Shown here one piece after another: positions 35,166 to 35,292 of a stretch of 64,000 nucleotides of DNA. The stretch is taken from positions 603,060 to 667,059 of the forward strand of contig NC_134390.1 of NCBI RefSeq assembly GCF_035582795.1, read 5' to 3'. How positions within the stretch are numbered: position 1 is the first letter of the stretch; each line of letters begins with the position of its first letter. A model generated the notes under the pieces. That model saw only the letters and a list, made by a program, of their open reading frames with translations, did not search any database and was not told the origin of the DNA. This stretch comes from Mycteria americana. Taxonomy: Eukaryota > Chordata > Aves > Ciconiiformes > Ciconiidae. Position numbers and translations under genes: made by a program.

Positions 35166-35292
35166 CTGGGGGGTGCCCCCGCCTCGGGGCGGGGGGGAGG
35201 AAGGTGAGGAAGAGGAGGACGGCGGCGAGGGAGAGCGCGGCTGAGACGAGGAGCCGGGCGGCCTCGGGGGAGAGCTCGGGGACGGCCACCAT
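35166..35292 (-). CDS. Candidate alternative first coding exon of PFKM (hydrophobic leader)
   Basis: Minus-strand ATG at 35292 in a strong context (GCGATGG) opens 42 codons, MVAVPELSPEAARLL onward, with an uninterrupted hydrophobic stretch at about residues 14-33 (VSAALSLAAVLLFLTFL) followed by PPAPRRG. A splice donor (CCCAG|GTCAGTG) ends the exon at 35166 with one base over. The next acceptor used by PFKM, at 33537, leaves eight bases before the PFKM ATG; 1 + 8 bases make three codons (Ala-Lys-Lys), so the leader reads in frame into [10 protein letters not shown]. If spliced so, PFKM would gain a 45-residue N-terminus with a potential signal anchor. Alternatives are an independent microprotein ending at 35119, or a chance open frame in CpG-rich DNA. 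Confidence 0.45.

Follow-up and report, generated by a model that had tools for sequence, protein, structure and literature searches.

Gene content of the window

The window, by which we mean the whole stretch of 64,000 nucleotides of Mycteria americana DNA that was analysed, spans 603-667 kb of a 2.99-Mb contig (NC_134390.1) in an assembly of 1.35 Gb; the features discussed below are collected in Table 1. PFKM, the gene for muscle phosphofructokinase, was recognised by 19 exon cores, placed down to about position 26222, and in the comparison with the PDB set its start exon gave E values of 6e-5 for the muscle type, 0.0046 for the platelet type and 0.0073 for the liver type. Positions 3115-24000 carry separase (ESPL1), prefoldin 5, zinc-finger genes and ASB8, with separase and prefoldin 5 further to the left. 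Together with SENP1, whose first exon presumably has its ATG near 38854, judging from the SENP1-like N-terminus, this arrangement resembles two human 12q13 stretches set side by side. A fragment of a reverse-transcriptase frame on the minus strand at 122-571, which matches RVT_1 below the curated cut-off, is probably, we assume, part of a CR1-type element, and Rfam gave no match in the window at gathering scores.

The promoter island contains an NRF1-like GCGCATGCGC at 38236, and the ordinary PFKM mRNA might begin with a noncoding exon that ends at the minus-strand donor TGG/GTGGGT at 38231 (score 6.2; this and all other splice-site, Kyte-Doolittle and Hessa values in this work serve ranking only). 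The literature on the SENP1/PFKM promoter held nothing useful among the matches listed.

Table 1. Features of the PFKM locus discussed in the text (window coordinates)
Feature	Position	Strand	Remarks
PFKM coding region	26201..33537	-	pieced together from its single exons by means of motif seeds
PFKM start exon	33439..33537	-	99 nt, phase 1-1; usual start codon at 33529
PFKM start-exon acceptor	33538..33557	-	exon starts at 33537; score 8.1
Tandem array, periods 45 and 68 bp	33747..35154		starts 11 bases past the candidate exon; makes up most of the candidate intron
Splice donor CAG/GTCAGT	35160..35168	-	last exon base 35166; score 8.6
Candidate coding exon	35166..35292	-	ATG, 42 open codons and 1 nt, phase-1 donor; MVAVPELSPEAARLLVSAALSLAAVLLFLTFLPPAPRRGHPP
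Predicted membrane span	35197..35253	-	LLVSAALSLAAVLLFLTFL, residues 14-32; by hydropathy
15-bp tandem array	35304..36155		ends 11 bases before the candidate ATG
54-bp tandem array	36194..38131		separates the 15-bp array from the promoter island
GC-rich promoter island	38200..38860		between divergent SENP1 (+) and PFKM (-)
ASB8		+	convergent to PFKM
SENP1		+	divergent from PFKM; catalytic exon by Pfam Peptidase_C48

A candidate coding exon upstream of PFKM

Immediately 5' of PFKM lies a short open frame in which the earlier note had seen a good start context, a good splice donor, an exactly in-frame route into PFKM, a hydrophobic stretch and CpG-rich surroundings, and our analysis bears these observations out. 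The ATG at 35292, on the minus strand, has G at both -3 and +4, and the open frame in which it lies contains no earlier in-frame ATG. The GC content of the segment is 0.77 and its CpG observed/expected ratio is 0.87. Its GC contents at the three codon positions (0.81/0.55/0.95) resemble those of the PFKM start exon (0.77/0.57/0.90) and of 1899 nt of PFKM coding sequence (0.57/0.43/0.92), i.e. the segment displays the positional bias of the neighbouring exons. Judged from the sequence, joining 35166 to 33537 is in frame and inserts Ala-Lys-Lys (AKK) before the normal PFKM Met; the start exon, with its 99 nt and phase 1 at either end, passes this frame on to the exon that follows. In this respect the segment could serve as an upstream exon for an alternative N-terminal isoform.

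The donor carries C at +3 and is hence good rather than perfect. With the matrix used, it is the top-scoring minus-strand donor in 33538-38800, the 5.3 kb upstream of PFKM, and only the site at 38231 joins it among donors scoring at least 6 between 38800 and 33538. The donors of PFKM itself range from 4.5 to 10.2 (n=18, picked by a script near the exon ends, some possibly wrongly). Across the candidate intron, the start-exon acceptor, whose sequence upstream of 33537 ends ...TTTTTCCAG, is the only one of the 263 AGs scored in 35140-33431 to exceed 5; the runner-up (4.2) lies five bases inside the PFKM start exon.

The AG sites just 5' of the ATG score 1.5 (at 35351 and 35336), 1.0 (at 35321) and -3.8. 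Since these upstream acceptors are weak, we prefer a first exon to an internal one. The candidate may nonetheless be weakly included as an internal exon, as four PFKM acceptors also score from -0.7 to 1.9 in a script-picked set of 19 with a median of 5.9, in which one pick, at -12.6, is clearly wrong. If the candidate is a first exon, its promoter would need to sit within the 15-bp minisatellite. A GC box at 35295-35302 adjoins the ATG; a search for TATAAA near the exon found none, and no clear promoter was seen there.

The 19 residues of the predicted span have a Kyte-Doolittle mean of 2.59 and a flat Hessa sum of -3.0 kcal/mol, as befits an N-terminal hydrophobic segment long enough to cross the bilayer, here a predicted signal anchor. 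In the fusion the net charge around the span is 0 before it and +4 after it. According to the positive-inside rule, positive charge flanking a span stays on the cytosolic side. The +4 that follows the span therefore favours a topology in which the N-terminus would face out and the C-terminus, with the phosphofructokinase body, would be cytosolic.

The minisatellite setting

Two minisatellite arrays enclose a unique island of 149 bases, most of which is taken up by the candidate exon. A search of the stork's own genome at the DNA level, in which the best candidates were scored and very common words skipped, returned 20 matches, namely the island itself and 19 in the neighbouring arrays, so that one copy of the island was found among the candidates scored. 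At the protein level the genome yielded the leader and two further matches, both of them weak (E 2.04 and E 2.61); the one at 2.61 lies beside a zinc-finger gene, which we take to be SP1-like, and looks like a chance match. Within the exon, Tandem Repeats Finder reported a weak 24-base stretch alone. We also considered that the island might have stuttered into the first intron, and dropped this idea, as the island gave its self match alone at E<=0.01.

The arrays themselves contain sequences that resemble splice sites. TTACAG, or a close variant of it, forms the end of many of the 15-bp units; this is acceptor-like, and the array might have arisen by stuttering from a former splice acceptor, but the pyrimidine tract is poor. 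On the minus strand of the array at 33747-35154 there are many CCAGTAAGG sites, donor-like but with A at -1 and all scoring below 6, that might serve as cryptic splice donors within intron 1 of PFKM. Elsewhere on the same contig, a piece of the flanking sequence (L019, 4847-6611, plus strand) holds three copies each of a 63- and a 73-codon frame, set 772 bases apart, which is a long-period tandem duplication.

Genes on the dot chromosomes of chicken have been described as carrying imperfect tandem arrays in their introns, and in passages of that report (PMC12954441) the arrays are not seen to enter exons, and array clusters are usually separated from one another by exons. The intron sequence stuttering described there, mainly for chicken and with PFKM unnamed in the main text, resembles the present locus in that imperfect arrays fill introns. 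The array-exon-array layout at our locus fits an exon at this place, short of proof. We did not retain the unique position between arrays as proof of an exon: nine gaps of 30-400 bp between arrays were found in the window (from a hand-made list in which some arrays are the coding repeats of zinc-finger genes), two of them too short to be scored, and five of the seven scorable gaps have no coding signature. The difference between GC3 and GC2 reaches at least 0.4 in the other two, the candidate and a zinc-finger gap, and is 0.37 in the next best.

Comparison with chance expectation

That this combination of features is rarer than chance would have it was likewise claimed in the earlier note, and four controls bear the claim out. 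The window has 68 ATG-to-donor pairs with an open frame of 20-90 codons and a donor score of at least 8; of these the candidate alone has a membrane span, defined as dG<=0. In a 200-kb flank of the same contig none of the 205 donor/phase frames has a span; the lowest dG is 0.75 and the next 2.49, the latter belonging to the first part of a protein that carries an integrin PSI domain. Of 20,000 shuffles, which preserve dinucleotides and not triplet composition, 19,279 remained open, and none reached either the hydrophobicity or the GC3-GC2 difference of the candidate. As so many shuffles stay open, openness is worthless as evidence here, while composition is strong.

We also scanned stop-free windows of 42 codons with the tandem arrays masked. 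The window contains 40 clusters with a GC3-GC2 difference of at least 0.405, and 39 of them can be attributed elsewhere, which leaves the candidate as the only one unattributed. These 39 (32 sense clusters and 7 antisense shadows) are attributed to separase, prefoldin 5, zinc-finger genes, ASB8, PFKM, SENP1 or the reverse-transcriptase frame. Five of the 32 sense attributions are soft, being made by position, general resemblance or weak match (+3641-3766, which has no PDB match, +8365-8571, -10425-10565, -26479-26604 and -32121-32252), and the curated cut-off was missed by five of the Pfam matches on which the attributions draw (three Peptidase_C50, one Prefoldin and one RVT_1). Hydrophobicity by itself sets the candidate apart less clearly. 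The window has three further stop-free clusters that are hydrophobic (dG -1.6 to -4.3); they are phenylalanine-rich, their GC3-GC2 difference is at most 0.12, and none of them is an ATG-to-donor frame in the pair scan. In the 200-kb flank outside arrays (27% masked), a single stop-free cluster has dG<=-2, namely an exon of a TMEM106 family protein with a GC3-GC2 difference of 0.45.

The codon usage of the candidate is skewed, CTC accounting for 9 and GCC for 7 of its 42 codons, and such a composition yields runs of Leu and Ala in one frame of three. Its period-3 autocorrelation is 0.48 against an expected 0.37, an excess similar to that of the PFKM exons, and the candidate may have originated from a cryptic repeat. 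The leader has no match in the PDB at E<=10, and the three frames holding it match no Pfam family. On balance, composition, splice sites and null tests agree with what had been proposed from the sequence at the outset, namely an exon-like coding segment that encodes a membrane span and has an in-frame route into PFKM.

Interpretation

We consider it quite probable that the segment is a real coding exon. Its fusion to PFKM appears to be the simplest reading, one to which we give about half of our credence. In full, the reading we prefer, with a probability of roughly 50%, is that the segment is a genuine 5' coding exon of PFKM, spliced from 35166 to 33537, and that it would give rise to a signal-anchored PFK-1 facing the cytosol. 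A minority or tissue-restricted transcript would begin in or just before the exon and splice across these two sites, and translation would initiate at 35292, as suggested by the good context of this ATG and by the open frame without an earlier one. The product would be PFKM with 45 extra N-terminal residues, comprising a head of 13 residues, the hydrophobic signal anchor of 19 residues and a proline/arginine-rich linker of about 30 residues that leads into the conserved PFKM sequence. The enzyme would stay cytosolic yet tethered to a membrane (ER, plasma membrane or a related one), and a tethered phosphofructokinase tetramer facing the cytosol seems plausible from the predicted topology. After removal of Met, the tryptic peptide of the leader is presumably VAVPELSPEAAR, according to the usual cleavage rules. 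The broader proposal, that birds, or a lineage of birds, make an integral-membrane isoform of PFK-1 by means of an upstream PFKM exon with a signal anchor, we hold a shade more tentatively, at slightly under even odds. Such an exon could have been overlooked in a stretch that is so GC-rich and filled with minisatellites.

Several other explanations have to be weighed against this one. It is unlikely, in our opinion, that the segment is no exon at all, i.e. that by coincidence a GC- and pyrimidine-rich remnant between minisatellites lacks stops, is hydrophobic in one of its frames and precedes a donor-like hexamer. The low evidential value of openness and the CTC- and GCC-rich codons would agree with such an origin, as would the 15-bp array upstream, which is open in the same frame (172 aa from stop to stop), the coding signature missing from most scorable gaps, the weak acceptors and the want of a clear promoter. 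However, the window, flank, shuffle and cluster tests speak against a remnant of this kind, as do the top-scoring donor of the region and the weak internal repetition reported by Tandem Repeats Finder. A separate microprotein is a more doubtful proposition. If the frame is read past the donor, it stops 15 codons on and would encode a single-span peptide of 57 residues (MVAVPELS...GHPPGQCLLAPAGRADWNQ, then a stop), translated from a transcript of its own or from that of PFKM and unfused to the enzyme. Small membrane peptides are often of about this size, but the last codons of this one enter the tandem array that begins (on this strand) at 35154, where conserved coding sequence would be unlikely, and the island of coding-type composition stops at a good donor.

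The segment could also open the coding sequence of another minus-strand gene, one for a membrane protein with its other exons beyond the PFKM start exon or in the PFKM introns. A hydrophobic start followed by a phase-1 donor is common among genes for membrane proteins; on the other hand, the single AG above 5 between 35140 and 33431 is the acceptor of PFKM itself, no other minus-strand cluster in the window at the GC3-GC2 threshold is left unattributed, and the leader matches no family, which together make this explanation improbable. We attach very little weight to the possibility that the segment is an alternative first exon of PFKM that is left mostly untranslated, ribosomes starting only rarely at 35292 and using the normal Met instead. 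Alternative noncoding first exons of PFKM exist, and tissue-specific isoforms are indicated for mammals (a title cited in PMC2881024); nevertheless, scanning ribosomes should use the ATG at 35292, given its good context and the lack of an earlier in-frame ATG, and the coding-type composition would be left unexplained.

Implications and relationship to known systems

The association of PFK-1 with membranes is usually put down to its binding to partners or to the cytoskeleton. If the preferred reading is true, the committed step of glycolysis would be fixed to a membrane by the polypeptide of the enzyme itself, and such a self-anchored PFK-1 would offer a direct genetic handle on local glycolysis, e.g. 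in sperm, at muscle membranes or in neurons. It would also show that avian DNA rich in minisatellites may even now conceal coding exons. No membrane-spanning PFK-1 appeared among the matches listed in the open-access literature, as far as titles and the beginnings of abstracts go; variant isoforms of PFKM are already known.

In its predicted architecture the candidate would follow the signal-anchor (type III) membrane proteins, in which a short N-terminal head precedes about 19 hydrophobic residues and positive charge follows the span. Its predicted layout is the same, with the peculiarity that a soluble enzyme, a tetramer, would form the body.

Among the variants of PFKM itself, mouse PFKMS is said to differ by an N-terminal extension from an upstream exon (reportedly the work of Nakamura in 2010, with isoforms also reported by Yamada in 2004). 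As the candidate isoform would, this PFKM variant positions the enzyme on a structure of the cell. According to passages of PMC11285943 and PMC4736023, PFKMS is a spermatogenic splice variant placed on the fibrous sheath of sperm; the former source adds that it tethers HK1S in the principal piece and is bound to GSTM5 in the fibrous sheath. The existence of testis- and embryo-specific isoforms of PFKM is also indicated by the title of a work cited in PMC2881024. Compared by description, PFKMS differs from the candidate in being held in the fibrous sheath by GSTM5, and the passages of PMC11285943 and PMC4736023 concerned mention no membrane span. Another parallel is provided by HK1S, the sperm form of hexokinase 1, which, in a passage of PMC4736023, has a unique alternative N-terminus whose acylation brings the enzyme to the plasma membrane. 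In both cases an alternative N-terminus relocates, or in the candidate would relocate, a glycolytic enzyme to a membrane, but HK1S, as described in that passage of PMC4736023, achieves this by dual acylation in its MGQICQ motif and with no hydrophobic span, whereas the candidate isoform of PFKM would be held by a hydrophobic span of its own.
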